Part shown: piece by piece, positions 4,901-63,056 of the stretch
Layout: every line of letters starts with the position of its first letter
Numbering within the stretch: position 1 is the stretch's first letter
Assembly (NCBI RefSeq): GCF_007751715.1
Contig: NZ_CP036292.1
Coordinates: 62,001 to 126,000, forward strand
Direction: 5' to 3'
From: Rosistilla oblonga
Lineage (GTDB): Bacteria > Planctomycetota > Planctomycetia > Pirellulales > Pirellulaceae
Length of the DNA: 64,000 bases
Notes under the pieces: model-generated
What the model was told of the DNA's origin: nothing
What the model saw: only the letters and a program-made list of their open reading frames with translations
Database searches by the model: none
Translations under genes and position numbers: made by a program

Positions 4901-7900
4901 GGAATTGCTCAAGCGGGAACTGCTCGCAGGGCAGGGGACCGGGGCAACTCCGTTTCAGGTGATGTTTGTTCTGGAGCACGAACCATCTGCGCTGACGCTG
5001 TCGGGAGTGCAGGCCCGCCGCGTGCCGATGGAAACCCAAACCGCGAAGTTCGATCTGTTGATCGCCGCCAGCGAGTCGGCTGATGCGCTGCGGATCGACC
5101 TTCAATACCGATGCAAAAGCTTCTGCCGGGAACGGATCGATCGCTTCGGCAAGCATTTTCAAACGCTGCTGGCCGCGGCTATCGATGCGCCGACAACCCC
5201 AGTCGATCGGATCGATATCCTGCCGGCTGCCGAACGGACGCGGCTGTTGAAGCAGTCCGTCGCAGCGGATGATCAAACGCCAAACGCGTGCGAAGCCGTT
5301 ACGAGCGATGGCGACGAAGCGAGTCCAACGCCATCGGTGATCCAGCCGTTCCAGGCTCAAGTCGCGAGCAATCCAGACCGCGAAGCGATTGCGTTTGTGG
5401 GGGATTCATTGACCTACGCGGAACTCGACAGTCGAGCCGCTGTTCTCGCGGCTCACCTGCGGCAGATGGAAGTTGGCCCCGATGTGCCAGTGGCGATCTG
5501 CATTCCGCGATCGTTGGAAATGATGGTCGCCGTTATCGCAGTGCTCAAAGCGGGCGGATGTTACGTCCCGATCGATCCGGCGTTGCCAGAGCATCGGCGA
5601 AAGCAGATCCTGGACGATTGCCGCGCCCCTGTACTGCTGACTCAAGCCGATTTGGCGAACGACTTGCTGCTCGACGCGACAGCGACCAAGCCGCTGTTGA
5701 TCGACGCGTTTGACTTCGGCGGCCAGTCGTTGCCAGCGGGCGAACTGCCCGACGTATCGAGTGAAAATCTGGCGTACATCCTCTATACGTCCGGTTCGAC
5801 GGGCCAGCCCAAAGGCGTCGCGATGCGTCACGGCGCGGTCGGGAATCTGATCTCCTGGCAATTAGAAAACTCGCAAGCCGACGCGTCGACAAAGACGTTG
5901 CAGTTTGCGTCGCTGGGATTTGATGTCTCGTTCCAGGAGATCTTTGCGACGCTCTGCAGCGGTGGTCGGCTGGAATTGGTTGGCGAGGATTTGCAACAGG
6001 ACCTGCATCGGTTGTGGAAGTTCATCGTCGATGCGCAGATCGGGCGGATCTTTGTTCCGTTTGTTGTGTTGCGAACGCTCTGCGAAATCGCGGGCGATTC
6101 GGCATCGCGATCGTCGCTGTGCGAAGTGATCACTGCCGGAGAGCAGTTGCAGATCACGCCGGCGGTGCGGAAGTTCTTTCAACAACAACCGGGCTGTCGG
6201 TTGTGGAATCACTATGGCCCGACCGAAACGCATGTTGCGACGGGATATTTAATGGCGGCCGATCCGAGCGAGTGGGCTGCGATCCCGCCGATCGGCAAAC
6301 CGATTGAAGGTTGCCAGGCCTTGATTCTCGACGACCACATGCAACCGGTGCCGCAGGGGATCGAGGGGGAACTGTACCTCGGCGGCTCCTGTTTGGCTCG
6401 CGGTTATTATCGAAACGCGGCGCTGACGCAGCAGCGATTTGTCAGCAATCCGTTTGGCCATTTGGCAACCGACCGCTTGTACCGTACCGGCGACCTCTGC
6501 CGTCTCAATTGGGATGGTGAAATCGAATTCATCCGTCGCAACGACGATCAGGTCAAACTGCGTGGCCATCGCGTGGAGCTGAGCGAGATCGAAACTGTAT
6601 TGAATCAACACGCCGACGTGAAACAAGCTGTCGTCTGTTACGACGCAAACGTCCTCGGCGGTCAGTTGGCCGCATACGTGTTGTGCGATTCGGCCGATAC
6701 GAGCATCAGCCAGCTGAAGAAGTTCCTCGAGTCGCGTTTGCCGGCATATATGTTGCCGAGTCGGTTCCACATCGTCGATGACGTTCCGAAAACCGCCAGC
6801 GGGAAGATCGATCGGAAACGGTTGCCGATGGTTGCGGTGACCGAGGGAGTTACGGAAACCGCGGCGGCGGCAAGTTCCGATCCCGACGATCCACTGATCG
6901 CACGCCTGCTGGAAATCTGGCGTTCGGTTTTGTCGACCGATGCGTTGGATGCCCACAGCAACTTCTTCGATTGCGGTGGCGACTCGCTGGCCGCTGCCAT
7001 ATTGTTCTCGCGCATGGAGAGCGAATTTGGCAAAGCGGTTTCGATTACGAAGTTGGTTGAATGTCCGACGGTCGCCGAGTTGGCTGATCTTTACCGACAG
7101 GACGACGACCGCGTCGAAGATTGTTGGAAGGGACTGTTGCGGATCGATCCACAACAAAAACATGCGGCGGAGCCTCCGCTGTTCTGCTTGCCGGGAATCG
7201 ACGGTCATCTGCTGAACTTCCGCGCATTGGCGACGGCGATTGGAAACGATCGACCCGTGTATGGGCTGCAGCCTTACGGGCTCGATGGTACGAGTTCGCC
7301 CTGCACATCGATCGAAGAGATCGCCGGTCGGCATGTCCAAGAGATCCGCAGGGTGATGCCCAGCGGGCCGTATCATTTGGCTGGGTTTTCGTTTGGTGGA
7401 GTTGTTGCGTTTGAGATCGCGCAACAATTGCGTCGGGCCGGTGAACAGGTCACGCTGGCGATCATCGACGCCTACACGGGGCTGCCCACCCCGGCGCCGC
7501 TGTTTCAGCGGTTCGCTTTCCATCTCCGCTTCGCCTGGCACTGCAAGGGACGCCAGTGTTGGCAATACCTTGGCGAACGCGTGACGGGCGTGAGCGCCGC
7601 GATCCAACACCGCTATGGCTGGATCACGATGGAGCAGCGGTTGGAACGCATCATCAACGCGACGGGGACCTACGCAAAAGTCGCCGCGACGAACATGACG
7701 GCGCTCGACGAATATCGCCCTCAATCGGCGGAAGGCCCCGCGACGCTGTACCGCGCCAAGTTCCGCGCCAACTGGCCCGGCCAAGATGTCTCCGATCCGC
7801 ACATGGGATGGGGCAAGGTCTTCGAAACATCCGACTTGGAAGTTGTCGAAGTCGAAGGCGCCCACGCCAACATGCTCTCCGAAGCGAAGCTGGCCGGATT

Positions 7901-7949
7901 GGTCGCTCATCTGCGGCAGACGCTCGCCCAGGACGACAACCAAGCGTAG
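1935..7949 (+). CDS. Dimodular NRPS A-PCP-C-A-PCP-TE, predicted Cys-Pro synthetase
   Basis: A 2004-residue nonribosomal peptide synthetase. Order: A1 (about 60-560, core YVLFTSGSTG), PCP1 (LGGTSL, Ser603), C (about 665-1110, HHIAFDG at 797), A2 (about 1135-1630, YILYTSGSTG), PCP2 (CGGDSL, Ser1684) and a type I TE (GFSFGG about 1816, Asp in IIDAY, His about 1977). Reading the specificity positions gives D256 L257 Y260 N299 M325 S327 L351 I359 W360 K for A1, identical to the cysteine code DLYNMSLIWK of yersiniabactin HMWP2. A2 gives D1330 V1331 Q1334 F1373 I1399 A1401 H1426 V1434 A1435 K, one residue from known proline codes. No Cy, E, MT or reductase domain is present, so a Cys-Pro dipeptide or its diketopiperazine is expected. 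The GTG at 1935 has GGGAAGG just upstream; ATG 1962, with AAGGA upstream, is an equally good start. Confidence 0.95.
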   Translation: MTIIQQGLPMHSIRPLGDSTSGGTDEVAARSSGDLSRSCQHLTPDEQHKLLELWNQTEHRWDDSPCLHELFTAQCERTPQATAVIYGDRQITYAELDDRSRRVACRLVDLGIAAGQPVAVVADGSPDAYVGLLGVLRAGGAYLPIDPKFPTDRIGFFLEDAAVDVVVGDLGPASVDAFPDLTIIRCDGLPDGNADDLPTVSPQNLAYVLFTSGSTGRPKGVMLNHQGPVNTVRDINLSFEVQATDRVLALSALGFDLSVYDLFGMFAVGGAIVLPTADQIRDPESWAALIDRHRVTIWNSVPALMDMLVTSLADADRLASLRRVMLSGDWIPLALPARIRQSAPQAELFSLGGSTEASIWSVIYPIGSVDPAWRSIPYGKPLRNQRCYVLDAAQKRCKIGEVGELCLGGVGVALGYVNRPDLTQERFIADPFSRGETLYRTGDLCRYGDDGNLEFLGRTDHQVKINGYRIGLGEIEAETLQLSAVREAVVVASDESAGTRLIAYVVFEAGQQLTLEQLQSRLSDSLPNYMLPAALIPLDRLPLTANGKIDRKSLPSPSVHREPSHLQQPSNPTEAIVCEILAELLHRDHIDPRDGFIPLGGTSLVAVALASRLKKVFGVRVDYWQILATSPNAIELAQQIEAAPQSDRVASNDHATIGNEPIDRAPLSYQQQQLWVEHFLKSNRARYNVPLVYDLGGDLDLLALQQAFTQVIDRHAILRTLYEPTAAGLIQRVLAPSEFCLHVVDLQSLPDATRWQTLEQQTREFIARPFELDRELPIRATLFRLTPSESRLVLSVHHIAFDGHSIDVLQRDLASFYNEIDRCESGSLAGLPYQYANYANWQQTLEQESFDDADRDFWRAQFADDPPPLNLPCDPSDAAESDGDTISLQIDSCLLDAARQFSSNRQTTLFVTLLAAIKATLFRYTGQEDLVVGSAVAARPDAEMEDLIGYFINVLPLRTRFAADGSFDDLHAKVRDTTLSAMAHQNYPLELLKRELLAGQGTGATPFQVMFVLEHEPSALTLSGVQARRVPMETQTAKFDLLIAASESADALRIDLQYRCKSFCRERIDRFGKHFQTLLAAAIDAPTTPVDRIDILPAAERTRLLKQSVAADDQTPNACEAVTSDGDEASPTPSVIQPFQAQVASNPDREAIAFVGDSLTYAELDSRAAVLAAHLRQMEVGPDVPVAICIPRSLEMMVAVIAVLKAGGCYVPIDPALPEHRRKQILDDCRAPVLLTQADLANDLLLDATATKPLLIDAFDFGGQSLPAGELPDVSSENLAYILYTSGSTGQPKGVAMRHGAVGNLISWQLENSQADASTKTLQFASLGFDVSFQEIFATLCSGGRLELVGEDLQQDLHRLWKFIVDAQIGRIFVPFVVLRTLCEIAGDSASRSSLCEVITAGEQLQITPAVRKFFQQQPGCRLWNHYGPTETHVATGYLMAADPSEWAAIPPIGKPIEGCQALILDDHMQPVPQGIEGELYLGGSCLARGYYRNAALTQQRFVSNPFGHLATDRLYRTGDLCRLNWDGEIEFIRRNDDQVKLRGHRVELSEIETVLNQHADVKQAVVCYDANVLGGQLAAYVLCDSADTSISQLKKFLESRLPAYMLPSRFHIVDDVPKTASGKIDRKRLPMVAVTEGVTETAAAASSDPDDPLIARLLEIWRSVLSTDALDAHSNFFDCGGDSLAAAILFSRMESEFGKAVSITKLVECPTVAELADLYRQDDDRVEDCWKGLLRIDPQQKHAAEPPLFCLPGIDGHLLNFRALATAIGNDRPVYGLQPYGLDGTSSPCTSIEEIAGRHVQEIRRVMPSGPYHLAGFSFGGVVAFEIAQQLRRAGEQVTLAIIDAYTGLPTPAPLFQRFAFHLRFAWHCKGRQCWQYLGERVTGVSAAIQHRYGWITMEQRLERIINATGTYAKVAATNMTALDEYRPQSAEGPATLYRAKFRANWPGQDVSDPHMGWGKVFETSDLEVVEVEGAHANMLSEAKLAGLVAHLRQTLAQDDNQA

Positions 7950-21957: not shown

Positions 21958-23631
21958 TTAGTTGGGAGTTGCCAGTTGTTCTGCGCCGCCGGCGATGATC
22001 ACTTCGGGCGTTCCGCGATCTCCGCAGGCGATTTCGTCGAGGAACATCTGCACGCCCAGCGGTGGTGGGATCAGGGTCAGCCCGCGCGCCGTGAGATGCT
22101 TTTCCAGGTCGGCGACCATGCCGATCTCCGCCCACGGTCCCCAAGCGACAGCAAAGGTCCGCGTTTGCGGCCAAGCTTGGTTCAGCGTGCAGGCGACTTT
22201 GCCCAAGACCTCGTTCGCCGCCGCGTAGTCGCTCTGCCCGCGGTTGCCAAATCGGCTGGCGACCGAAGCAAACAGGGCGAGGAACTTCAATTGGTTGGGG
22301 GCGATCGCATCGATCAGTCCTGCTGTGCTGTGGACTTTGGTGTTGAAGACGCGATCGAACGAATCGGGAGTCTTGTCGCGCAACAGCTTGTCTTCGATCA
22401 CTCCCGCGCCGTGGACCACTCCGGCGATCTGGCCGTATTCGGCTTGGATGTTATGCAGCATGGCGGCAAACGATTCGCGATCCGAGACGTCGACCGATCG
22501 GTAGTCGGCATGGCCGCCAGCCTGCCGGATTCGATCCAACGTCTGCCGAATCTCGCGGGCCGCCATGATGCGATTCGCTTGCCGTCCGATCTCGGCCGGT
22601 TTGGGCGTTTCGCCTCGCGCTTTGGCCAGCTGGATCAGGGCGGATTTCAGTTCCACGTCGCTGGTCGCCGCAGCGATCTCCGCCGGTTCAACCTGTTCGG
22701 GCAATTGAGACCGTCCCAGCAAAACCAGTTGCGATTGATACTTCTTCGCCAGGCCGACCGCCATCTCAGCGGTGATCCCTCGGGCGCCACCGGTCATCAC
22801 GATCACTTCGCCCGGTTCCAGAACCAGTTTGTTTTCGCTGGCGGGATCGATCGTCGCGGCGATCGGTTCCCAGGTGATCCGGCCAGCGCTGCTGACACCA
22901 ATCTCCAGCGGTCCGGTCGACTGACCCAGTTCCGCCGCGATGGCATCAAAGGTCGTGGAGGTGTTCATTTCGGGGGAGATATCGACGGCGCGAACCAAGA
23001 CGTCGGGCCATTCCAAGCCGATGCATTTAACCAGACCCAAGATACCGCCATGGGCGGCGCGAGCGATTGGTTGGTCGGCCGACGTGCCGTAGCCGAGTCG
23101 CCCGTCGATCGCGGTTGCTGCCAGCAGGACTGCGCTGCCGTTCTTAGCCGCTTCGGTTAGATCGGATTCCATCGCTCGAGCCAACAGGTAGAGCGATCGG
23201 GAATCGCGGCGTGCGCGATCGACAAGGGTGTCGGTGTCGCTAAACTGCGACAGAGGCGATAGATGGATCAGTCCGGCCAGGGCGTCGTGGTGCTGACGCA
23301 GAGCTGGGATCAGAGCATCGATCACCGCGGCGTCGCTGAGATCGGCTTCGATCACATCGTCGATCGTCGACAGGTCCAACGGTTTGCCGTCGACGTGACG
23401 CAGCAGAACGGTTGGATGGTCGAACATGTCAAAACGTTCGACGACTTTGTTGGCGATCCCGCGGTCGTCGCAGGTGATGACAACGGTTCCGGCGGGCAAG
23501 ATCCCAGCACCCAGGTTGCTGCCCAGCGGCGCGGGGATCAACCGCACGCCACCTCGCGAGATCGGAATCGTTCCGTCGTCGACGACCTCGGCGGCTGGGG
23601 ATGCTTCGGGCGCAGGGGGTGTTGATTCCAC
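21958..23631 (-). CDS. Ketoreductase (KR) segment of the PUFA-synthase-like PKS, in the -1 frame
   Basis: 557 residues counted from GTG 23631. Residues about 285-530 form a type I PKS ketoreductase: VIVMTGGARGITAEMAVGLA (NADPH site), VVHGAGVIED, FASVASRFGNRGQSDYAAAN (Ser/Tyr/Asn active site). The part before it is the structural KR subdomain (GILGLVKCIGLEWPDVLVRAVD). The frame is open upstream of the GTG, through an Ala/Pro linker (VDPAAAAVEPAEPTAVAEA), to the A10 run at 23706-23715, where the PKS frame stops 10 codons earlier than this one begins to look like protein. No ribosome-binding site fits the GTG. It is most probably not a separate gene but the C-terminal KR of the upstream PKS, reached by a -1 shift. 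As an independent protein it would be an oddly truncated linker-KR. Confidence 0.85.
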   Translation of the reverse strand: MESTPPAPEASPAAEVVDDGTIPISRGGVRLIPAPLGSNLGAGILPAGTVVITCDDRGIANKVVERFDMFDHPTVLLRHVDGKPLDLSTIDDVIEADLSDAAVIDALIPALRQHHDALAGLIHLSPLSQFSDTDTLVDRARRDSRSLYLLARAMESDLTEAAKNGSAVLLAATAIDGRLGYGTSADQPIARAAHGGILGLVKCIGLEWPDVLVRAVDISPEMNTSTTFDAIAAELGQSTGPLEIGVSSAGRITWEPIAATIDPASENKLVLEPGEVIVMTGGARGITAEMAVGLAKKYQSQLVLLGRSQLPEQVEPAEIAAATSDVELKSALIQLAKARGETPKPAEIGRQANRIMAAREIRQTLDRIRQAGGHADYRSVDVSDRESFAAMLHNIQAEYGQIAGVVHGAGVIEDKLLRDKTPDSFDRVFNTKVHSTAGLIDAIAPNQLKFLALFASVASRFGNRGQSDYAAANEVLGKVACTLNQAWPQTRTFAVAWGPWAEIGMVADLEKHLTARGLTLIPPPLGVQMFLDEIACGDRGTPEVIIAGGAEQLATPN

Positions 23632-23693
23632 AGCGGTCGCGGCTTCGGCAACGGCTGTTGGTTCAGCGGGTTCGACCGCCGCAGCGGCTGGAT

Positions 23694-26600
23694 CTACGAC
23701 GTCACTTTTTTTTTTGCGTCGTCGCTGAAGATCGCTTCATCGAGATAGTCGACGATTCCTCGCAGCGTGCGAAGCGTCGTCAACTTCTCCAGTTCCAACG
23801 TATCTTCCAGCGATTCGCCGTCGCCAGCGAGCTGCAGGACTTCGGCGAGGTTCCCCAGGATCTCGACCCGTTTGATCGAATCGATTCCGAGATCGCCTTC
23901 GAGGTCGGCTTCCATGTCGAGCATGTCGACGGGGTAACCGGTCCGGTCGGCGACCAGTTCCAGCAACGCTTCTTCGGCTTGTTGAATCGACGCGGGAGCC
24001 GCTTGGTCGTTGTCGGTCGGCGCGGCGGCGGCGGCTGGTTCGGCAACTGCGGGCGATGGCGCGGCGGGTGTCGGTTCCGGTGCAGCGGCTGGCGCCGGTG
24101 CGGGAGCGGGAGCAGCGGCAGCTGGTGGTGCAGCGGCGACTGGCGCGGCGGCAGGGATCGCCGGTGCGGGCTTCGCTGCGTGGCCGTTTTCGCCGTTGTG
24201 GCTGATCGCCGCGTAGGTCGGCTGCGGTCGCTGAGCGATCTGCGGTTGAGCGGCTTGAGGGAGCATGCCGTTGTCGGATTCGGGAGCTTCCCCTTGCAAG
24301 TACGTGACCATCACATCGCGTTGCGTTTGCAAGAACTGACGCATCAGTTGTTGGTAGCCAAGCATCACGGCTGTTGCTTCGTCATGATACGTGGCGGCGG
24401 GTGTTTGAGCCGATCCGTTGGTTTCTTGTGGAAGACGATTCGTAGCGGAGGATGTTAGTTGCATGGTGTTTTGATCAGATGGAACAACGGGAGTTGGAGC
24501 TGTCGGTTTTTGCGGCCGCTGTGGCGCGGCAGATGCTGCTGGCGGCAGCGGCTTCGTTTCACGAGGTTTTTGTGTTGGGACTTGTTGTGGTTTTTGCAGC
24601 TCCGCTGCGACGGCAATCGGTTTTGCCGTTGCCGCAGCCGCCGATGGTTTGGCGGCGGGTTCCTGTTTCGCAGGTTGGCCGTTTCCTGTGGCGGCCGGCC
24701 GAGGTTTGTCGGCGTCGGGATGACGCTGCCCCAGATAATGTTTTTCCGGTTCGTTGATCGGGCGGTTCCGCATCCCGTTGACCATCCATGCGTTCTTAGG
24801 ATAGTCGGGATGGCCGATCTGTGAATTCAATTTTCGCAGGTCGATGCGTTGCGGAGCACGTGCGGCAAACAGAGCCGAAGGCCGGATGCCGTCGACACCC
24901 GCGGTGATCAAGCGGCCCAGCGTGTGAACCAGTTGAGACAACGAATCGCGACCGCGTCGATCGATCGACACGGCGGTGTGCGGTTGGTCTTTCAACGTTT
25001 GCCCGACCAGACCGGTCAACGCGCTGCCGGGGCCGACTTCGATAAACGTTCGCACACCGTCGGCGTGCATCGCGGCAACCTGTTGACGGAAGCGAACCGG
25101 CGATGCGAGGTGCGTCTTGAGCGTGGCGAGCATCTCTGCCGGAGCGGCCGGATGTTTGGCGGCGGTTGTGTTGCTGTAGACCGTTCGCTGTGGAGCTTTC
25201 CATGCAAGCGAATCGAGCTTCTCGGCAAAGGCGGTTCCAGCGGCGGCGACTTGCGGTGAATGGAAGGCACACGAGACGTCCAACTTGACGACTCGCATTC
25301 CGGCGGCCGTCAGTTTTTCGATCGCGCTGTCGACCGCTGCGGTCGGACCGGAGATCACGATCTGCTGCGGCGAGTTGTCGTTGGCGATCGTGATCGCTTC
25401 GGCCAATCCGGCGGCGGATAGCTCTTTTTGAATCGTGGCTGCGTCGGCGGAAACCGCCGCCATCGCACCGGCAAAACCGCCGTCGGGCTGCGGTTGAGCG
25501 GCCGATCGCATCGCGTCGCCACGCGCCGCGGCAAGGCTCAGCAGATCGTCGTACGTCAACGCTTCGGCGGCTGCCACGGCGACTAGTTCGCCAAAGCTGT
25601 GACCGCCGACGACATCGGCGCGAATCCCCAACGCATCGATCACCTGCAGCGCGGCCCACGATGTGGCGGCGAGTGCCGGTTGAGCGACCGCTGTGTCGGC
25701 CAAGGCCTTGCGGTTGGCATCGCGATCGGCGTCGGTGAACGGCGATGGCGGATAGATCAGTTGAGCAAATCGACTGGCAAAATGTTCGTCGTAGACCGCT
25801 GCGGCATGATCGACCGCAGCGTGTGCTGCGGGGAATGCGAGCAGCAGTTCGGCGAGCATGTCGGGATATTGTGCCCCTTGGCCGGGGAACAGCAGCGCGA
25901 CTTTGCCCGCGGTCTCGGGTTCGATCTCGGCCAGGTAGATGCCGCGCGGATCGGAGATCGCCAACGGCGTCGCTTCACATTTTTTGATAGCGATCGCAAG
26001 ATGATCGGTCAGCTGGCCCAGGTCTTTGGCAACGATTGCCGCCACGCATTCGGCGGCGGTTGTCTTTTCAAAGGCATCGGCCAGCGAAGCCGCCAGTTCG
26101 GGCAGTTCCGGCATCGCGCCGGCGGCAAGCCAGGCCTGGATCCGCGTTAGTTCGGTTCGCAACGCGGCGGGATTCGCCGCTCGCCAGACCAGCAATTCGG
26201 CGGGCCAGTGGTCGCGAGCAACCTCGGGCGGATTGGCGAAGTCTTCGGTATATTCTTCCAAGACCAAGTGGACGTTGGTGCCACCAAATCCGAACGCGCT
26301 GACTCCGGCGCGACGCGGGTGGTCTTCGCCATTGATCCAGGGACGCGTCTCGGTGTTCAAGTACAGCCCAGTGTTAGGGAAGTCGATCGCGGGGCTGGGC
26401 GTTTCGACGAGCGTTGGGGGCAGGGTCTTGGTGTGCAAGGCCATCGCGGCTTTGATCAGACCCGCGACGCCGGCGGCACACTTGCTGTGACCGATCATCG
26501 ATTTGACGCTGCCGATCGCGACCGATTGGCGGCGGGCTCCCGATTCGTCCAGGACGGTCGCGACCGAAGTCGCTTCGGTCCGATCGCCGACAACGGTTCC

Positions 26601-29600
26601 GGTTCCATGGGCTTCGACCAAACCGATCGACGATGGTTCGACGCGGGCTTGTTCGTAGGCGCGTCGCAGGGCGCGGATCTGTCCGGTGGCGTTGGGGGCG
26701 GTCAGCCCTTTGTCCTTGCCGTCGCTGCTGCTGCCGATGCCGCGAATCACCGCGTAGATCTTGTCGCCGTCGCGCTCGGCATCCGCCAAACGCTTCAGCA
26801 TCACGATCCCAAGGCCTTCGCTGAGCACGATCCCGTCGGCTTCGGCGTCGAACGGCCGGCAGCGTCCCTGCGGCGAGAGGGCGTGCGTTTTGCTGAAGGC
26901 CATAAAGGCGTAAGGCGTTTGCACGGTGTCGGCACCCATCGCAAACGCGACGTCGGTGGTTCCCAGTTGCAATTCGCGGATGCAGGCGTGGACGGCGGCC
27001 AGCGACGAGGCGCAAGCGGCGTCCAGAGCGTAGTTCGATCCGCCCAGATTAAACCGATTGGCGACGCGGCCGACGGCGACGTTCATCAAAATCCCGGGGA
27101 ACGAATCTTCGGTCCATTCGGGCAGATGGTTTTTCACCGCGTCGCAAATCGCTTGTCCTGAGACCGGCAGTTCGGGAGCGGTTTCGATGATCGGCAGCGA
27201 GCTGCGGATGCCATACATCACGCCCATCGGGCTGCCACCGCCGCCGATGCCCAGCACCGCACATGCTGTCTCGCGGTTGAACGGTCGGCGATCGTAACCG
27301 CCGTCGGACAGCGTTCGCTTCATCGATTCCAGCAGCAACAATTGCAGCGGTTCGATCGACGCGATGCTTCGCGGCGTGATCCCGTATTCGAATGGATTAA
27401 AGACTTGGTCGGTCAGGAAGCCGCCCCACTTGCTGACGATCTTGTCGGGAGCTCGCGGGTCGGGATCGTAGAACAACGTCCAGTCCCAGTGCGAATCGCG
27501 AGGGACTTCGGTGACGGCGTAGTGTTTGTTAAGGATGTTCTCCCAGTACTGCGCCAGTTCGTTGCCGCCGGGATACATCGCACTCATCCCAACGATCGCG
27601 ATATCGCAGGGGGGCGGCGCGTCGACCGAATCGGTGAAGCTTGGTTTGGGAGCGACGTTCAAATTCGCCGAGGCTTGTTGCAGTCGTTGCGTTCCGGTTT
27701 GGCTGACATCGGCGTGCAGCTGGCCGATCGTCGTCACGCTGTCGCGGAGCGCGGCGACTTGGCCGACCATGTACATTCCGCGTTCGTATTGTTTGTCGCT
27801 GGAGACGTTTTCCAGTTTGCTTTTGCCACCATCGCTGGGCGTCGATCGCTCGATTCCCTTGCTGGCGACGCGCAGCCGCCCGATGTTCATCCATTCCAGT
27901 TCGCGTGTGATCTCGTCGGCGGTTTTGCCTTCGCCAGCCAGTCGTCGCCGCTCGCGATCGAACAGGTCGCGGTAAGGGGTTCGGATGCAGCGGATCGCGT
28001 GGCCGGGACCGGTTTCCAACAGGACGGTGTCGTGGCTGCGGATCGCTTCCTCTTGAAAGCGTGGCACGATCGCGCCCGCTTCGACAGCTTCTTTGGTGAA
28101 CAGATAGGCCGAACCCATCAGCACGCCAACTTTGGCGCCCAGTTGCGACAGGCGTCCGGCGACCGATGTTGCCATCGCGGCGGAGAGGCCATCGTGGATG
28201 CCGCCGGCGAACAGCAGATGCAGCTTGGAGATTTCTCTGGGGTTCTTTTTGGCAAATGCTTCGAGCACGACCAGCAAGCTTTCCCACAACACGAAGCTGC
28301 TGCGCGGTCCGACGTGTCCGCCGCACTCGCGGCCTTCGAAGACGAACCGCCGTGCACCGTCGCGGAGGAACATTTCCAGCAGCCCCGGCGAAGGAGCGTG
28401 CAGGTAGGTCGGGATGTCGATCGCTTCGAGCTCTTTGGCTTGGTCGGGGCGTCCACCAGCGATCAAGGCAACTGGTGGCCGGTGCTCTCGGATCGCAGCG
28501 ATCTGTTCGGTGCGGATCTCGGGCGGCAGAAAGCCCAGCAGGCCGGCACCCCAACCGCGATCTCCCAGCTTGGCTCGCGTGGCTGCCAGGATTTTGGAGG
28601 CTTCGGGGCCGCGCATCAGAGCCAGCGCGATCAACGGCAGGCCTCCTTCGCTGGCGACCGCTTCGGCAAACTCCGCCGTATCGCTGACTCGCGTCATCGG
28701 TCCCTGAACGATTGGCAACCCGATGCCGTGGCTGGCGGCGAGCGGTCCGTCGGCGTCCAACGGATTCACTTCGGCTGCCGCTTGGATGTTCTCGCGCGAT
28801 TGATCGATGATGGCGGTGACGGTGCCGCGAACGTCGACGCAGCGCTGGGCCAGCCCCGCGGCAAAGGCGAGGTCTTGGCCGGCGATCAAGACGCGCGGGT
28901 CATCGTTTGCGGCGACTGCTTGTTCGACGCCGTCGATCCAGGCTTGTGCAAACGATTGGTCGGGGGCGGATTCCTGTTTGGCTAACAGGTTCAGTTCGAG
29001 TTCGCGCAGTTGTTGCAGGAGCGCTGCGCTTGGCGGCGCGGCAAATCGGAAGCATCGCCCCAGCGATTCGCCCAGCAAATGAGTCTGGCTGCCATCGTAG
29101 GAACGGACCCAGGTGGCGGCTGCGGGGGAGAGTGGCGATGCTTGGGCCAAGAGGACCTGAGAATCGATGACCACGCCGCGGGCGCCGGCCGCTTCGCAAG
29201 CGGCTGCGGTGTGTGGGCCGATTCCACCTTGGGCGTAGGCGGGCAGACGCTGGCGACGCGCGTCGTCCAATCGGGCCCAACGCTGCAGCAGCAAGAAGGT
29301 GGTTTCGCTGGCGACCCAGCCTCCCGCTTCGTTCCCCTTGAGGATCACGCCATCAAGCGGCAGGCCGATCGCTTCTTGCAGCGCCTCGCTGCGCGTAATC
29401 TCGGCTAGCAGGCGGACTTGGTTCCCCAGCCGGTTGCGCAGCGAAGTGACTCGCTGAGCTGTGATTTCACCAGCCAGGATCACTGCATCGAGCTGCGACG
29501 CGTGTTGCGCTAGCTGTTCGAGGTGAACCGGTTCGGTGTTTGGACCGATCCGCGCGGCAAAAGGGTTGTTTGTGAAGCGAACCAATCGCTCGATAGAAGC

Positions 29601-29726
29601 CGCTGTCGAATCGCCGTTGCTGGCGAGGTCGAGAGTGCCGATCGCGCCGGCACGGCAGGCAGCAATGGCGAGGTCGATCGAAGCGAGACGAGGCAGGGTG
29701 ACGACGAAAATATCGGTCGGGAGCAT
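23694..29726 (-). CDS. PUFA-synthase-like type I PKS: NMO-NMO-KS-AT-ACP
   Basis: 2010 residues. Two nitronate-monooxygenase/FabK-like (PfaD-type enoyl reductase) domains come first: a degenerate one (about 1-230) and a better one (about 335-640, GLPIVQGPMTRV, EGRECGGHVGPR). KS spans about 706-1160 with DAACASS (Cys905), EAHGTGT (His1040) and GHSKCAAG (His1080). AT (about 1275-1590) has PGQGAQ, GHSFGE (Ser1377) and CAFHSP, favouring malonyl-CoA. After an Ala/Pro/Gln linker, one ACP carries GIDSIKRVEIL (Ser about 1950), the signature of PfaA-type carriers. The frame ends four codons after A10, as ...DDAKKKVTS. A -1 shift there joins the KR, giving 2589 residues. No DH, PPTase or PfaB/C gene is in the window. 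The product is probably a polyunsaturated or hydroxylated long-chain acyl chain. Confidence 0.92.
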   Translation of the reverse strand: MLPTDIFVVTLPRLASIDLAIAACRAGAIGTLDLASNGDSTAASIERLVRFTNNPFAARIGPNTEPVHLEQLAQHASQLDAVILAGEITAQRVTSLRNRLGNQVRLLAEITRSEALQEAIGLPLDGVILKGNEAGGWVASETTFLLLQRWARLDDARRQRLPAYAQGGIGPHTAAACEAAGARGVVIDSQVLLAQASPLSPAAATWVRSYDGSQTHLLGESLGRCFRFAAPPSAALLQQLRELELNLLAKQESAPDQSFAQAWIDGVEQAVAANDDPRVLIAGQDLAFAAGLAQRCVDVRGTVTAIIDQSRENIQAAAEVNPLDADGPLAASHGIGLPIVQGPMTRVSDTAEFAEAVASEGGLPLIALALMRGPEASKILAATRAKLGDRGWGAGLLGFLPPEIRTEQIAAIREHRPPVALIAGGRPDQAKELEAIDIPTYLHAPSPGLLEMFLRDGARRFVFEGRECGGHVGPRSSFVLWESLLVVLEAFAKKNPREISKLHLLFAGGIHDGLSAAMATSVAGRLSQLGAKVGVLMGSAYLFTKEAVEAGAIVPRFQEEAIRSHDTVLLETGPGHAIRCIRTPYRDLFDRERRRLAGEGKTADEITRELEWMNIGRLRVASKGIERSTPSDGGKSKLENVSSDKQYERGMYMVGQVAALRDSVTTIGQLHADVSQTGTQRLQQASANLNVAPKPSFTDSVDAPPPCDIAIVGMSAMYPGGNELAQYWENILNKHYAVTEVPRDSHWDWTLFYDPDPRAPDKIVSKWGGFLTDQVFNPFEYGITPRSIASIEPLQLLLLESMKRTLSDGGYDRRPFNRETACAVLGIGGGGSPMGVMYGIRSSLPIIETAPELPVSGQAICDAVKNHLPEWTEDSFPGILMNVAVGRVANRFNLGGSNYALDAACASSLAAVHACIRELQLGTTDVAFAMGADTVQTPYAFMAFSKTHALSPQGRCRPFDAEADGIVLSEGLGIVMLKRLADAERDGDKIYAVIRGIGSSSDGKDKGLTAPNATGQIRALRRAYEQARVEPSSIGLVEAHGTGTVVGDRTEATSVATVLDESGARRQSVAIGSVKSMIGHSKCAAGVAGLIKAAMALHTKTLPPTLVETPSPAIDFPNTGLYLNTETRPWINGEDHPRRAGVSAFGFGGTNVHLVLEEYTEDFANPPEVARDHWPAELLVWRAANPAALRTELTRIQAWLAAGAMPELPELAASLADAFEKTTAAECVAAIVAKDLGQLTDHLAIAIKKCEATPLAISDPRGIYLAEIEPETAGKVALLFPGQGAQYPDMLAELLLAFPAAHAAVDHAAAVYDEHFASRFAQLIYPPSPFTDADRDANRKALADTAVAQPALAATSWAALQVIDALGIRADVVGGHSFGELVAVAAAEALTYDDLLSLAAARGDAMRSAAQPQPDGGFAGAMAAVSADAATIQKELSAAGLAEAITIANDNSPQQIVISGPTAAVDSAIEKLTAAGMRVVKLDVSCAFHSPQVAAAGTAFAEKLDSLAWKAPQRTVYSNTTAAKHPAAPAEMLATLKTHLASPVRFRQQVAAMHADGVRTFIEVGPGSALTGLVGQTLKDQPHTAVSIDRRGRDSLSQLVHTLGRLITAGVDGIRPSALFAARAPQRIDLRKLNSQIGHPDYPKNAWMVNGMRNRPINEPEKHYLGQRHPDADKPRPAATGNGQPAKQEPAAKPSAAAATAKPIAVAAELQKPQQVPTQKPRETKPLPPAASAAPQRPQKPTAPTPVVPSDQNTMQLTSSATNRLPQETNGSAQTPAATYHDEATAVMLGYQQLMRQFLQTQRDVMVTYLQGEAPESDNGMLPQAAQPQIAQRPQPTYAAISHNGENGHAAKPAPAIPAAAPVAAAPPAAAAPAPAPAPAAAPEPTPAAPSPAVAEPAAAAAPTDNDQAAPASIQQAEEALLELVADRTGYPVDMLDMEADLEGDLGIDSIKRVEILGNLAEVLQLAGDGESLEDTLELEKLTTLRTLRGIVDYLDEAIFSDDAKKKVTS
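23696..23722 (-). other. Probable -1 recoding / slippage site joining the PKS and KR frames
   Basis: On the coding strand the PKS reads GCA AAA AAA AAA GTG ACG TCG TAG. The A10 run includes the classic -1 slippery heptamer A AAA AAA. Slipping back one base gives AAA AGT GAC GTC GTA, which runs without a stop into the KR. One extra A from polymerase slippage has the same effect. ACGACG and CGTCGT flank the run and could pair, holding it in a 15-base loop, and a GC stem (CCGC/GCGG) lies about 20 bases downstream. Confidence 0.6.
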
Positions 29727-40827: not shown

Positions 40828-43800
40828 TTAAGAAACGAGTGCCTGTTCGGTCTGCTGCATGATCGTCTCCAGCGATTTTGCTAGCACTTCCACCGCCGGG
40901 GGCTGCAGCATGTGAGCGTGGTCGCCCGGGACCTGGACGTTCCGCACTTCGGTGACATGCGACTGCCACCCCAGAGCGGTGTCGTCGAACAGGTTTCCGG
41001 TCCGCGCTTGTTCGGCGGGGCGGATCAGGGTCAACGGACCATCAAACTTTGGTGCCCGATACGTGTGGACCGCTTTGACATTTGCTTGGAAGACTTGGTA
41101 GACGTTTTGGCCGTAATCGGAGGCTTCGTCCGGCACGATCCCCGCCTGAGCGGCTTGGCTGGTGAAGTAGGCCAGCTGTTCGGCTGGCGACTTTTTCCGC
41201 AACTCTTCCAACGAGAAATGAGCTTCGGCGCCGGGGAACAGAGCCATGATCAGCGGCAGGAAGTCCTCTTCGCTGAGCGTCGAGTTGTCGTCCATCAGCC
41301 CCGAATCGATCAGCCCCAGCATCCCGACCTCGCGTCCCATCGCCTTCAATTGACAAGCGACTTCATACGCGATGTTCCCTCCCAGCGACCATCCGGTGAC
41401 GTGCAACATTCCCTCGGGGCATTGCTGCTGGATCGCTTTCGCGTAATGCGCGGCCATCTCCTCCACCGTCTCTTGCGGCGGGTGGCTGCCGTCGACGCCG
41501 ACCGCCTGCAGTCCATAGACCGGGCGGTCCTGCGACAGGCTGCGGGCCAGTTCCAGGTAGCAGAAGACGGTTCCGCCAGCCGGATGGATGCAGAACAAAG
41601 GGACGCCGGAGTCGCTGGTTCGCAGCGGGACCAGCGACGATGCGGTCATGGCTGATTCGGGCCGGCCGAGGATCGATGCCAGATGCGCGACCGTGGGGTC
41701 TTGGAAAAGAGCGGCCAGCGGGATCGCATGCCCGGCCAGGCGTTCGATCTCGGACATCATCCGGACCGCCAACATGCTGTGTCCGCCCAGTTCGAAGAAG
41801 TTGTCGACGCGGCCGATCGGACGAACATCCAACAGATCTTCCCAGATCCCCGCGATCAATCGCTCCTCGTCAGTCGCCGGTGGTTCAAACCCCGCGGCTC
41901 CTTCCGGGCGTCCCGCCGGGGCGGGCAAGCGGTCTTTGTCCAGCTTGCCGTTGATCGTCCGCGGGATCTCGTTTAACGTAACCACTGACGACGGGATCAT
42001 GTATTGCGGCAGCCGATCCTTCAACGCATCGCGTACCTGTTTGGCAAACTGTTGTTGCGTCCGACTGGCCAACGGGTTGCTGGCGAATTGCCCAAGCCCC
42101 TCCAGCCCGACCAGCGTACCTGGCATCACAGGAGCCACCGCCGTTACCGATTCCGCCACATCAACGACCGCGTCGATCGTGACGTCGAAGGCAGCGGGAT
42201 CGTCCACGTTCCAGGAGAGATTGACCGACCTGTCGAGATCGGTCGCAAGTTTCCAGAATGTTTGCGGATGTTGGGTCGGGATCTCGCCGACCGATTGCTT
42301 CAGTTCGCCAACGCTTCGGTCCTCGACGAACCTGGCCAGTTTGTTCTGGATCGCGACGTCGCGGGCGACCCGCGAGTTCGGAACACCTTGTAACACAAAA
42401 GCCTGATCTGGCGATTGAGCCAACTGTTGAGCAAACGATTCGAAATCGAAGTCGTCCGTGAATTCGATCCGCTGTCGATCCTCGGCCGGCGTCGGTCGAT
42501 CGAACTCCAGCACTACGTCGTACCGGAACCAACTGAGTTCATTTTCGGCGGTGGCATCTTTCAACTGAACCGTGACGCCGGTCAAGTTTTCGATTCGCGA
42601 CTTGAGCGCGGCGAACAACCGTGGGTCGACCAACAGTTCCTCTTCGTGTTGGATCCGCGCTGCAACGCGGTCTCGCAGCGACTTGATCGACAGCGCGTCG
42701 GGAGCCTGTTGCAGTTCGATCGCCGTCGCCATCGTCGACTGCAAACGGTAGTTCCGCAGATCGCCCAGGAACATCCGTCCGCCGGGAGCCAGCAGACGCG
42801 AGGCCTGTTGGATGACGCGAGCCAGGTAGTCGACGCTGGGGAAATATTGGACGACCGAGTTGAGCACGATCAGATCGAAGCGGCGATCGGCCAGGTTTTC
42901 CAAATCGTCGGCCGGCTGATGGAACAATTCGACTTTGCCCGCCAATTCGGGGCGGTTCTTCAGCGCTTGCCGCACGTTTTCCAACGACGGAGCCAACAGA
43001 TCGGTTCCGACGTACGAATCGCATTGGCCAGCGATCCGCAACAGAATCAGCCCCGTTCCGCAGCCGATCTCCAGCACGTTTTGCGGATGCAAATCTTCGA
43101 TCCGCCGCGCCGCCGCATCGGCCCACTCGACCATCTCATCGCCCGGGATCGGTTGCCCCGTAAACGTGCTGATCCAACCGGTGATGTTGAACTCGGGGTT
43201 CAGCACCGGTGGCGCGACGCGGTGCGCGTTGGTGAACAGATCGCTCCAGCTGTCGACATGCGCGTGCTCGAGCGACTGCGCCGCGGAATCCTGTCTGGCG
43301 GCCGACTCGGGCACAACGTAAGCGACCAGCTGTCCCGAATCAGCTTCGCCTCGCAGCACCACCGCCGCTTGGCGAACTTGTGGCAAACGCTCCAGCGCCG
43401 CCGCGATCTCTCCCGGTTCGATCCGGAAACCACGCAGACTGATCTGATCGTCGACGCGGCCAAGGAACTGCACCACGCCGTCGGGCAACCAACGCCCCAG
43501 GTCGCCGGTCCGATACATCCGCGCCGTCGGATCATCGACAAACGGATCGGGAACGTAGACCTTGGCTGTCAGTTCGGGTTGGTTCAAGTAGCCGCGACCG
43601 ACGCCTCGGCCGCCGATGTAGATCTCTCCCGGCATCCCGATCGGCACCGGCTGGGCTTGCGGATCGAGAACATACATCCGCATGTTCCGCATCGGGCCAC
43701 CGATCGGCGGCCGATCGTCGCTGCACGGATCGGGGATCAGCATCATCGACACGCCAACTGTCGCTTCGGTCGGTCCGTAGCCGTTGAACATCCATCGGCC

Positions 43801-46143
43801 CGGCACCCAACGCCGCGCCAATTCGCCGGTCAATTTGTCCCCCGCGGAGGCAACGATCTTCAAATTCGGAAGCTGATCGCTGTGCAGCATCGACAGCAGG
43901 GCAGGGGGAAACTTTGCCACGGTGACCTGTTCGTCTTGCAGCATCGCGGTCAACAGACGCGGATCGCGAATCGTATCGGCGTCGGCGATCACCAACGTCG
44001 CGCCGCTGATCAGCGTTAGCAGGATCTCCGAAATCGCACCGTCGAAGCTTGGCGAAAAGCCATGCATCACGCGATCGCTGTCGGTCACTCCCATCCGCTC
44101 GATCTGAGCGAGGATGAAGTTGACGATCGTGCGATGTTCGATCTGCACCCCTTTGGAAACGCCCGTCGATCCGGAGGTGAAGATGATGTAGGCGCGGCTG
44201 GTCGCGGTGGCGCGTCCGGCCAGGTTCGCTTCTGTAGCGGCGGAGGCTGCGGATTCCAGCAGGCCAGCCGGCGTGGAGCATCGGATCCCGGCAAACGTTA
44301 GCTCCGAACAGAGGTCTTCGTCGGCAATCGTCAGCGTCGCCGCGACGTCGCCAACGACCGACGCGACCCGCGCGAAGGGGACTGCGGGATCGATCGGAAC
44401 GTAGGTCCCACCGGCTTTGAAAATGGCAAACATCGATGCGACCGCGTCGATCGATCGGGGCAACGCCACGACAACGGGCGCTTCGTCGCCGACGCCTCGG
44501 GCGACCAATGTCGACGCCAACGCGTTGGCTCGCTGGTTCAATTCGCCAAACGTGATCGAATCTCCCTGGGCCCGAATCGCAACCGCGTCGGGATCGGTCG
44601 CCGCGCGGAGATCGAAGTGTTTGTGCACCGTATGCGGCGGAGCGAACTCCACGACGGGAGGATTAAAATCATCGATCACGCACCGCCGCTGCTGGGGCGA
44701 GACCGCCGGCAACAGATCGATGCCACAATCGGGATCGGCGACCGCAGCGGTCAACAGGACGGTAAAGCTGTCGATCAGTCGAGCGATCGTCTCGGGGCGG
44801 AACAACCGCGTGCGGTATTCGACGTGACCGATCAACCGCTGCGTCTCCTCCCACAGAAAGAAGGTCAGGTCGTATTTGGCCGTTCCGTTGTCGATCGGGA
44901 TCGGCTGGATCGTCGTCTGGCCGTGGTTGAAGTCGCGGGGCAGATTCTGCATCACCAAAGCGGATTGGAAGATCGGCGAATAGCTGCGATCGCGTCGCGG
45001 AGCAAATTCTTCGACCATCCGCTCGAACGGCAGATCGGCGTGATCGTAGCCGCCCAAGGTGACCTGCCGGACATGATCCAGCAGCTCCCGGAACGTCGGG
45101 TTGCCAGCGGTCTTTATCCGCAGCGGCAGCGTGCCGACGAAGAACCCGATCAACGCTTCGAGCTCCGGTTCGGTGCGGTTGGCCACCGCGGTTCCCAGCA
45201 CGACGTCGCTCTGCCGCGCGAACCGCGACAGCAGTGTTGCTTGAGCTGCTAACAAAACCATGTACGGGGTGCACTGCATCGACTGGGCCAACGCGTTGAT
45301 CTGCAGCGTCAACGCCTGCGGCAGTTCCAACGGCAGCGTGGCCCCATCAAAATCTTGCGTCGCCGGCCGCGGAAAATCGGTCGGGAAGTCGAGGGCCATC
45401 GGAGCGCCGGCCAGCTGAGTTCGCCAGTATTCCAACTGTTGCTCCATCCGCGATTCCGACATCGCCGATTGCTGCCAATAGGCAAAGTCGGAGTACTGGA
45501 TCGGCAGCGGTGGCAGGATCGATGCGTCGTCGATCGGCCGCGAGGGATCGGATTGGAAGGCGGCGTAGAAGGCCGCGATCTCCTTCAACATCACGATCAT
45601 CGACCAGCCGTCGGAGACGATGTGATGCATCACCAACAGCACGACATGTTCTTCCTCAGCGATCCGGTAGACGATCGCGCGGAACAGCGGCCCGGTCTCG
45701 ATATCGAACGACTCTCGGCTCTCCAGCGTCAGTTGCCGCGGAAGGTCTTCGAAATCGTCGACGAACCGCGGCGCGATTGCTAGCGTTTCGGCGACCCGCC
45801 GCTCCGGCTGGCCATCGACCAAGTGGTAGGTCGACCGTAGCGTTTCGTGGCGATCGACAATCGCCTGGATCGAACGCGTGAAGGCCTGCCGATCCAGCGG
45901 TCCCGTGATCCGCGCGGCCAGCGGCATGTTGTAAAACGGATCGTCCGGCTCCAGTCGATCGACGAACCACAACCGCTGTTCGGCTTGAGAGAGCAGCTGC
46001 GGCGCATCGGCGGGGCGCCGCGGGATCTTGGTCGTCGGAGCAGTTTGCGCCGGGCGACGCCGCGATTTTTCGAGCAGCATCTGTTCCAGGAGCGCACGTT
46101 TCTCGGGGCTCAGCTGCCGCAAGCGGTCTTGAAAATCGGGCAT
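40828..46143 (-). CDS. Monomodular NRPS C-A-MT-PCP-TE
   Basis: A 1771-residue NRPS. A start helix region leads to C (about 45-470, MHHIVSDGWS with His173-174, Asp178), then A (about 495-975; AYIIFTSGSTG about 650, GYGPTEATV about 785, YRTGDLGRW). A methyltransferase is inserted between A8 and A10 (about 1000-1210; VLEIGCGTGLILLRIAG, FDLIVLNSVVQYF, LAPGGRMFLGDL), and A10 NGKLDK follows at about 1398. PCP carries LGGHSML (Ser about 1454) and the TE GWSLGGN (about 1586) with LIDSG and DHAHML. The specificity residues read D G S K A A G V G K, which I cannot assign, though Asp235 implies an alpha-amino acid. A C domain at the front means it accepts an acyl or peptidyl donor from another protein or a free carrier. 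No MbtH gene or partner module adjoins it. Confidence 0.94.
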   Translation of the reverse strand: MPDFQDRLRQLSPEKRALLEQMLLEKSRRRPAQTAPTTKIPRRPADAPQLLSQAEQRLWFVDRLEPDDPFYNMPLAARITGPLDRQAFTRSIQAIVDRHETLRSTYHLVDGQPERRVAETLAIAPRFVDDFEDLPRQLTLESRESFDIETGPLFRAIVYRIAEEEHVVLLVMHHIVSDGWSMIVMLKEIAAFYAAFQSDPSRPIDDASILPPLPIQYSDFAYWQQSAMSESRMEQQLEYWRTQLAGAPMALDFPTDFPRPATQDFDGATLPLELPQALTLQINALAQSMQCTPYMVLLAAQATLLSRFARQSDVVLGTAVANRTEPELEALIGFFVGTLPLRIKTAGNPTFRELLDHVRQVTLGGYDHADLPFERMVEEFAPRRDRSYSPIFQSALVMQNLPRDFNHGQTTIQPIPIDNGTAKYDLTFFLWEETQRLIGHVEYRTRLFRPETIARLIDSFTVLLTAAVADPDCGIDLLPAVSPQQRRCVIDDFNPPVVEFAPPHTVHKHFDLRAATDPDAVAIRAQGDSITFGELNQRANALASTLVARGVGDEAPVVVALPRSIDAVASMFAIFKAGGTYVPIDPAVPFARVASVVGDVAATLTIADEDLCSELTFAGIRCSTPAGLLESAASAATEANLAGRATATSRAYIIFTSGSTGVSKGVQIEHRTIVNFILAQIERMGVTDSDRVMHGFSPSFDGAISEILLTLISGATLVIADADTIRDPRLLTAMLQDEQVTVAKFPPALLSMLHSDQLPNLKIVASAGDKLTGELARRWVPGRWMFNGYGPTEATVGVSMMLIPDPCSDDRPPIGGPMRNMRMYVLDPQAQPVPIGMPGEIYIGGRGVGRGYLNQPELTAKVYVPDPFVDDPTARMYRTGDLGRWLPDGVVQFLGRVDDQISLRGFRIEPGEIAAALERLPQVRQAAVVLRGEADSGQLVAYVVPESAARQDSAAQSLEHAHVDSWSDLFTNAHRVAPPVLNPEFNITGWISTFTGQPIPGDEMVEWADAAARRIEDLHPQNVLEIGCGTGLILLRIAGQCDSYVGTDLLAPSLENVRQALKNRPELAGKVELFHQPADDLENLADRRFDLIVLNSVVQYFPSVDYLARVIQQASRLLAPGGRMFLGDLRNYRLQSTMATAIELQQAPDALSIKSLRDRVAARIQHEEELLVDPRLFAALKSRIENLTGVTVQLKDATAENELSWFRYDVVLEFDRPTPAEDRQRIEFTDDFDFESFAQQLAQSPDQAFVLQGVPNSRVARDVAIQNKLARFVEDRSVGELKQSVGEIPTQHPQTFWKLATDLDRSVNLSWNVDDPAAFDVTIDAVVDVAESVTAVAPVMPGTLVGLEGLGQFASNPLASRTQQQFAKQVRDALKDRLPQYMIPSSVVTLNEIPRTINGKLDKDRLPAPAGRPEGAAGFEPPATDEERLIAGIWEDLLDVRPIGRVDNFFELGGHSMLAVRMMSEIERLAGHAIPLAALFQDPTVAHLASILGRPESAMTASSLVPLRTSDSGVPLFCIHPAGGTVFCYLELARSLSQDRPVYGLQAVGVDGSHPPQETVEEMAAHYAKAIQQQCPEGMLHVTGWSLGGNIAYEVACQLKAMGREVGMLGLIDSGLMDDNSTLSEEDFLPLIMALFPGAEAHFSLEELRKKSPAEQLAYFTSQAAQAGIVPDEASDYGQNVYQVFQANVKAVHTYRAPKFDGPLTLIRPAEQARTGNLFDDTALGWQSHVTEVRNVQVPGDHAHMLQPPAVEVLAKSLETIMQQTEQALVS

Positions 46144-61475: not shown

Positions 61476-63056
61476 TTATTGTTCGGCCCGAATCATCACG
61501 CGCAACCCAAACACCTCTTCGAAAAGGGTGCTGTTTTGCCGGATCGCTAGTTGTTCCAGGGTGACGTCTTCGACCCGCGGGACCTCGATCACCAATCGAT
61601 CGCGCTGCTTGATGCATTTGAAATCCTGCACGCGGCCGGATCGCGAATCGTGCATCGCGATCGCCAACCGCAGCAGCGCGGCCATCTTTGCAACCGCCAC
61701 TCGCTCGCTACGGCTGAGACTTCCGTAACCGTCGTGTCCCGGTTGCGGATGCGCGCGGCGGTGGTATCGGGCGACCAACGCGACTAACAAAACGTCCTGG
61801 CGACTGAGCCCAAAGATCTCGCTGTTGCGGATCAAATACATCGCGTGTTTATGGTTGCTGCGGACGTCGACAAACATCCCGATCTCGTGCAACAGCGCCG
61901 CGACGTGCAGCATGACTTCGTATTTGGCATCCAGTTGATGTTCGGCCTTCAATTGTTCGAACAACAGGCTGGCCGACGCCGCCACATGTTTGGCATAGGG
62001 TTGATCAAAATCGCACTTCCGCCCCAGAGTCATCGCCGACCGCAGGATTTGATTGCGAAACTCCGCCGTCCAACGCCCCTCGCTGGCCATTTCCAACAGC
62101 AGGCCATCGCGGAGGTTGGTGTCCGAAACCAGCACGGTATCCAGCTGGAAGATCCTTGCCAGCATCAGGTTGCTCAACAGCGCCGGCCCCAGCGTGGTCG
62201 CGTCGGAGAAGTTGACGTTCAGCTTTTGGACGATCTCGTCCTCGTTGTATTTCAGCACCTCGTTGACCAACGCGTCCAAGGCGTCGACCGAGACCCGCGC
62301 TAGGGTCCCTCCATCCCAATCGCCCAAGATGTGACTGGCGGCGAAACGCATGTCGCCACCCAACGCGATCAATTCGATTTTGCCATCCTCGGCAAACACC
62401 TGTTCGCGGATCCGCGCGACGGTTTGCCGGATTTGCGTCTCCATGATGCTGCGTCGCCGCATCCCCGGAGCGCCAAGACTTTCCAAGCGTTCGGCCAGTC
62501 GCAGCGAACCGAGCCGATGGGTTTCCGAAAACAGAACGTTGCCGCTGCGGACGACCAGCACCTCGGTCGACCCACCGCCAACTTCCACCACGACCGACTT
62601 GGCGACTGCCAGCTTGGGATCGCTGTCCAGATGCGGTTGGATGCCCATGTAGGTGATCCGATTCACCTCGGCTTCTTCGATCGATTCGACCTCCAGCCCG
62701 GTGGCGATGAAGACGCGATCCAGGAAAGCGAGTCGGTTGACAGCTTCGCGAACCGCGCTGGTGGCGACGACACGAATATCGTCGGTCGATGTGATCCCGT
62801 ATTCCAACAGCACCTTCTGGTAGGATCGCAGGATCCGCACGCATTCTTCGATCGATGACCTGGTGATCTGCCGCGATTTGAAGACGTCTTCGCCCAGCGT
62901 GATCTTGCGAGTCAGCGAATCGATCGTGCGGACCAGCCCCAGGTCGCTGATCTCAGCTATTGCCATCCGGATGCTGGTGGCGCCGATATCGATAACGGCA
63001 ACGGTTCGCGGCGGCATCAAGCCAGCCGAGATGGAGCGTTCGGTTGTTTCAGACAC
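61476..63056 (-). CDS. Ppx/GppA phosphatase family protein with HD domain
   Basis: A 526-residue protein. The ASKHA start TVAVIDIGATSIRMAIAEI, VVATSAVREAVNR, the phosphate/GGGS loop VVVEVGGGSTEVLVV, and GDMRFAASHIL place it with exopolyphosphatases / pppGpp phosphohydrolases. The C-terminal half has an HD-type region: HVAALLHEIGMFVDVRSNHKHAMYLI and LVALVARYHRR. It hydrolyses polyphosphate or (p)ppGpp, linking it to the stringent response. The GTG at 63056 is taken as start; ATG 63017 (MPPRTVAV) is nearer the domain and equally possible. No operon partner. Confidence 0.93.
   Translation of the reverse strand: MSETTERSISAGLMPPRTVAVIDIGATSIRMAIAEISDLGLVRTIDSLTRKITLGEDVFKSRQITRSSIEECVRILRSYQKVLLEYGITSTDDIRVVATSAVREAVNRLAFLDRVFIATGLEVESIEEAEVNRITYMGIQPHLDSDPKLAVAKSVVVEVGGGSTEVLVVRSGNVLFSETHRLGSLRLAERLESLGAPGMRRRSIMETQIRQTVARIREQVFAEDGKIELIALGGDMRFAASHILGDWDGGTLARVSVDALDALVNEVLKYNEDEIVQKLNVNFSDATTLGPALLSNLMLARIFQLDTVLVSDTNLRDGLLLEMASEGRWTAEFRNQILRSAMTLGRKCDFDQPYAKHVAASASLLFEQLKAEHQLDAKYEVMLHVAALLHEIGMFVDVRSNHKHAMYLIRNSEIFGLSRQDVLLVALVARYHRRAHPQPGHDGYGSLSRSERVAVAKMAALLRLAIAMHDSRSGRVQDFKCIKQRDRLVIEVPRVEDVTLEQLAIRQNSTLFEEVFGLRVMIRAEQ

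Follow-up and report, generated by a model that had tools for sequence, protein, structure and literature searches.

A conserved A10 run at the ACP-KR boundary of a PfaA-like polyketide synthase in Rosistilla as a likely site of programmed transcriptional slippage

In the marine planctomycete Rosistilla oblonga CA51 a polyketide synthase (PKS) gene breaks off at a run of ten adenines while its KR domain continues in the -1 frame, which raises the question of whether the break is an error or a programmed site from which two forms of the synthase, with and without KR, are made. The locus was analyzed within a stretch of 64,000 nucleotides (the window; positions 62,001 to 126,000 of contig NZ_CP036292.1), and its features are collected in Table 1. 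Around the run the coding (-) strand reads GAC GCA AAA AAA AAA GTG ACG TCG TAG, with the 0-frame TAG 9 nt past the end of the run; the -1 frame passes through an Ala/Pro linker into a complete KR, ending at 21958. Because the two pieces match consecutive parts of TIGR02813 (PfaA, NCBIfam; model positions 7-908 for the 0-frame piece and 1803-2256 for the KR piece), they make up one PfaA-like protein together, and the KS-AT-ACP-KR order of the model is reproduced only when the frameshift joins them. The PKS nevertheless differs from PfaA: scored as two pieces and not as the joined protein, it falls below the family cut-off of 1010 bits (0-frame piece 803.7, KR piece 290), it has a single ACP where the PfaA criterion is tandem ACPs, and it carries a PfaD/NMO-like ER at its N-terminus and is split before the KR.

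Table 1. Positions of the features of the PKS locus in the window
Feature	Position	Strand	Remarks
0-frame ORF: NMO/PfaD-like ER, KS, AT, ACP	23694..29726	-	2010 aa; ends DDA-KKK-VTS-stop
Ketosynthase (KS)	26409..27605	-	PF00109 + PF02801, residues 708-1106
Acyltransferase (AT)	24894..25892	-	PF00698, residues 1279-1611
ACP	23742..23972	-	PF00550, residues 1919-1995; DSIKR phosphopantetheine motif
A10 slippery run	23706..23715	-	T10 on +; exact A10 in three species
0-frame TAG stop	23694..23696	-	Same in all three species; the rare -1-frame Val codon GTA overlaps it
Ala/Pro-type linker (SDVVDPAAAAVEP...), -1 frame	23550..23706	-	
-1-frame continuation: KR + KR N-terminal subdomain, up to own stop	21958..23712	-	
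KR catalytic domain	22126..22803	-	PF08659, E=1.2e-37; TGGARGI cofactor motif, SDYAAAN

The first-pass annotation, made from the sequence alone, had proposed most of this arrangement: a PKS and KR split by a -1 shift at the A10, an open -1 frame through an Ala/Pro linker to a complete KR, a total of 2589 residues, a classic -1 slippery heptamer, and a run striking in itself. The run, the stop and the frames were confirmed, the KR is supported by its PF08659 match, and the total is about right. The heptamer also held as sequence (A_AAA_AAA occurs twice), with a ribosomal mechanism judged less probable than a transcriptional one. The run is indeed rare: the 7,250,512-base genome of R. oblonga CA51 contains only seven exact A10 runs and no A11, and the presence of one of them at the PKS split is more than chance. 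The PKS locus lies between two NRPS genes, one with A-C-A, PCPs and a thioesterase (window 1935-7949, + strand) and the other with C-A-MT-PCP-TE (window 40828-46143, - strand); neither contains a run of at least eight A.

The arrangement was compared across three complete Rosistilla genomes, which we take to be R. oblonga CA51 (G000), R. carotiformis Poly24 (G001) and, probably, R. ulvae EC9 (G002). At this homologous locus the three species share the same A10, 0-frame TAG and split (the sequence at the run and TAG is GTGACGTCGTAG, with the variant GTGAAGTCGTAG in G001), and the KR is intact in the -1 frame of both sister species (99% and 95% identity). Values of dN/dS among the three are low both in the KR (0.04-0.12) and in the upstream, 0-frame part (0.10-0.16), indicating that both halves of the PKS are functional and under purifying selection. 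Just 3' of the run the linker is stop-free in the -1 frame, whose codon score exceeds that of the other two frames in each species, and the differences over 50 linker codons fall mostly at third positions of that frame (15, against 8 and 7 at the others). The -1-frame codon overlapped by the TAG is GTA, which accounts for only 14 of the 730 valine codons (1.9%) in the genes of the window; the TAG is unchanged in the three species although the next codon varies, and its retention through a rare codon therefore suggests selection on the stop itself. The run, stop and split are thus established, as are their conservation and the selection acting on both halves.

Orthologs outside the genus were sought in 60 relatives and in 241 family, 397 order and 392 phylum members, and about a dozen were found. 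The complete ones have a single open frame of about 2400-2900 aa that joins ACP to KR, so the fusion is the norm, and in most orthologs the ACP-KR linker lacks an A run. Two species of another genus (g32; genomes G033 and G115) have an A10 of their own within this linker, in frame (GAG TTA AAA AAA AAA GAC in G033 and GTC GAA AAA AAA AAG CAC in G115); each of the two shifted frames closes within about 20 codons. In the 9.2 Mb of the G033 genome A10 occurs just five times; by a rough estimate, one of these runs would fall in a linker of 250 bases with a probability of about 1e-4, which rises to about 2e-3 once the number of homologs examined is taken into account. Another PKS, that of G012 (L018), also has an in-frame A10, directly behind an ACP. 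We read the in-frame A10 of G033 and G115 as the mirror image of the split arrangement in Rosistilla, not as a refutation of slippage.

Our preferred reading, to which we assign a probability of roughly 0.72 in the absence of any RNA, protein or reporter evidence, is that the A10 serves as a programmed slippage site between ACP and KR, where transcriptional slippage, possibly with a ribosomal -1 contribution, gives a KR-less and a KR-bearing synthase. RNA polymerase on the A10 template would sometimes add one A or drop two, producing a mixture of A10 and A11 (or A8) mRNA. The A10 mRNA would be translated up to the TAG, giving a KR-less NMO-KS-AT-ACP protein, and the A11 (or A8) mRNA would enter the -1 frame, giving the full PKS with KR. 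The predicted junction peptide is DDAKKKSDVVDP for A11 mRNA or a -1 ribosome and DDAKKSDVVDP for A8 mRNA; ribosomal -1 slippage on the A_AAA_AAA heptamers within the run may add to the transcriptional slippage. That slippage occurs, at what level it does so, and that both forms are useful are inferred. The locus nevertheless has the sequence marks of a transcriptional slippage gene: a homopolymer A/T run (usually 8-9 or longer) in a coding region; a run length conserved among homologs (a criterion given in PMC1088944), here exactly A10 in the three Rosistilla species, with an A10 in the same linker of G033 and G115 and none in the other genera; and an early stop in one frame (the TAG at 9 nt) combined with conserved coding in the other (KR dN/dS of 0.04-0.12).

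The dnaX gene serves as an internal control. In R. oblonga CA51 it carries an A10 at G000:C1:2938537-2938546, the third A10 conserved across Rosistilla, exactly at the known tau/gamma slippage site. Among the readable Pirellulales dnaX loci, 24 of 29 have A9 or A10 at this site and none has a longer run, a pattern which suggests that dnaX is subject to transcriptional slippage across the order. The runs occupy codon phases 0, 1 and 2, and in 24 of 24 cases the -1 frame stops within 8 codons past the run (chance expectation, 22%); the median distance to the first shifted-frame stop is 1 codon in the -1 frame and 2 in the +1 frame, compared with 29 and 21 at random positions of the same genes. 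This combination of phase independence and early stops in both shifted frames is expected of RNA-polymerase slippage but not of a ribosomal heptamer, and we therefore take it to indicate RNA-polymerase slippage in Pirellulales dnaX.

We found no conserved RNA structure that could act as a stimulator at the PKS run. The first-pass annotation had noted ACGACG/CGTCGT repeats flanking the run and a GC stem downstream of it. The inverted repeat held only in part, being intact in CA51 and G002 and broken at one position in G001 (GTGAAGTCGT), and the downstream stem failed: no downstream stem-loop is significant (z of -0.4 and 0.4 in CA51, and of -1.6 and -0.9 in G002). A hairpin upstream of the run is pronounced in CA51 (z of -3.5 to -4.2) and strong in G002, but it weakens in G001 (z of -1.1) and is absent at other A10 genes, and it was rejected as a stimulator. 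Given this lack of a conserved stimulatory structure and the presence of A9 or A10 in every codon phase of dnaX, RNA-polymerase slippage is the more probable mechanism.

About 110 A10 sites in 37 genomes were read, with coding judged by codon score; most are non-coding, and those on the coding strand are confined to a few kinds of multi-domain gene. In a gene for an ACP-aminotransferase-[A10]-thioesterase protein the run is in frame in the three Rosistilla species and in Roseimaritima ulvae (G029; 76% identity over 816 aa), lying before the thioesterase at G000:C1:1068303-1068312 in CA51. A perfect 8-bp hairpin (CGTCGGAC...GTCCGACG) abuts the run in the CA51 gene. DUF1080-ThuA-NPCBM-PVC genes are split at an A10 between ThuA and NPCBM/PVC in G029, G019 and G014, with a TAG or TAA immediately past the run in the first two of these genomes. 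In G002 such a gene is split at an A10 between DUF1080 and ThuA, and the same A10 is in frame in G000 and G001, so that one and the same site occurs both split and in frame among close relatives. The R. oblonga CA51 gene of this type (G000:C1:4111793) has two in-frame A10 runs. A ThuA|SGNH-hydrolase-PVC gene of G012 (L114, G012:C1:2447702) is split at an A10 with the opposite shift, needing 9 or 12 A, and a MetH-type methionine synthase in G032 (L188, G032:C48:5426-5437) has an in-frame A10 between its pterin and B12 halves. Given this recurring series, the PKS split is unlikely to be an isolated error. The series also allows a bolder reading, towards which the balance tips only slightly in our view, that Pirellulaceae generally use A10 transcriptional slippage to make the last domain or domains of large multi-domain proteins optional, linkers having repeatedly acquired the run, and a change of one base switching the default product from full-length to truncated. 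The optional parts would be the tau/gamma portion of dnaX, the KR of the PfaA-like PKS, the thioesterase of the ACP-aminotransferase-thioesterase protein, the PVC part of ThuA-PVC proteins and the B12 half of MetH.

Programmed -1 ribosomal frameshifting, in which tRNA-Lys re-pairs on A_AAA_AAA within GCA AAA AAA AAA GTG, would give the same two products. The heptamer occurs twice in the right phase, and Escherichia coli dnaX uses A_AAA_AAG (PMC3711429). Against this, no SD-like element was found upstream in AGCGACGACGC, the downstream structure is neither significant nor conserved, ten A exceed what a heptamer requires, dnaX of the same lineage keeps its runs in all three codon phases, and the split L114 gene needs the opposite shift, the last two points being incompatible with a -1 heptamer; we consider ribosomal frameshifting unlikely as the main mechanism, without excluding it. 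Separate production of the KR, through initiation within the gene or reinitiation beyond the TAG, with the domain acting in trans, has candidate starts at GTG codon 25, TTG codon 55 (behind GAGGTGG) and ATG codon 93 after the run. However, there is no SD ahead of the GTG, and the 25 codons leading to it look coding in the -1 frame; the weak GAGGTGG, which merely precedes the TTG, encodes part of an ISRGG motif and is GAGGCGG in Poly24, and it was rejected as an SD for a separate start; and the distant orthologs are all fusions. This explanation seems to us very improbable. We give as little weight to DNA-level phase variation, in which replication slippage would toggle the KR between cells, and to a decaying pseudogene. 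A10 runs can mutate (see also PMC1088944), but the length is exactly 10 in three species and dnaX, where switching would be harmful, carries the same run; decay of a pseudogene is excluded by the KR dN/dS of 0.04-0.12.

The main doubt concerns a sequencing artefact: the true run could be A11, with one A missed in each of the three assemblies, in which case the PKS would be a single uninterrupted frame. The three Rosistilla genomes were all produced by one project (PMC7716947, PMC8303584) and none of them contains an A11, so a shared undercall is conceivable; moreover, 11 A would be required to join the frames in five of the six split genes (phases derived by hand). Against it, the A10 runs of dnaX and the aminotransferase-thioesterase gene are in frame in the same assemblies, indicating that A10 is not generally miscalled; the G014 assembly does call A11, and yet its gene is split at A10; the 0-frame TAG is conserved together with the rare codon that it overlaps; and a search of 37 genomes turned up no A11 inside a gene that is convincingly coding. 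An artefact is thus very unlikely, if not fully excluded, and even with a true A11, slippage on the run would likely yield both PKS forms. The first-pass annotation had offered such an error, or a real frameshift, as its alternative, and this is disfavored by the A10, TAG and split kept in three species and by the A10 in the linker of a second genus. It had also held that relatives with an uninterrupted frame would point to an error; distant orthologs literally fulfil this, but in them the A10 is absent or in frame. Its proposal of two PKS forms, with and without KR, is supported by the comparison with relatives, with the mechanism corrected to RNA-polymerase slippage as the more probable one.

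Split dnaX genes with A10 and the A9 of Thermus thermophilus dnaX are published precedents, and GeneTack also describes dnaX that needs recoding for its longer product (PMC3711429). The PKS resembles the dnaX tau/gamma system, which is also present in CA51, in having an A9/A10 at a domain boundary, a nearby shifted-frame stop and two nested proteins; it differs in being a PKS module whose optional part is a catalytic KR domain. The best functional analogue is tssM, which has a split A11 in Citrobacter rodentium and an in-frame A9 in Yersinia pseudotuberculosis, with 20-25% slippage and both forms needed in C. rodentium (PMC4256274), so that slippage makes the long form in one homolog and the short form in the other. 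The split PKS of Rosistilla and the in-frame PKS of G033 and G115 form the same mirror pair; tssM, however, encodes an enterobacterial secretion protein and not a megasynthase, and its slippage has been measured where that of the PKS is inferred. After the tssM work, AAGAAGAAG is the altered counterpart of the A10 for a reporter comparison. Slippage giving two products is thus known, but our searches of the literature (titles and abstracts of full-text matches) returned nothing relevant on slippage or programmed frameshifting in a polyketide synthase; within that scope, a PKS, PUFA synthase or other megasynthase with its KR made optional in this way is unreported, and the recurrence across Pirellulaceae multi-domain genes appears new.

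If the slippage reading is correct, one gene would give two forms of an iterative megasynthase, only one of which could reduce the beta-keto group, and slippage by RNA polymerase would determine either the product or the stoichiometry in which the complex is assembled. Megasynthases and ThuA-PVC proteins annotated as frameshifted or split in planctomycetes would then be real genes rather than errors, and Pirellulales would possess a set of slippage-regulated genes for which the dnaX series provides a ready internal control.
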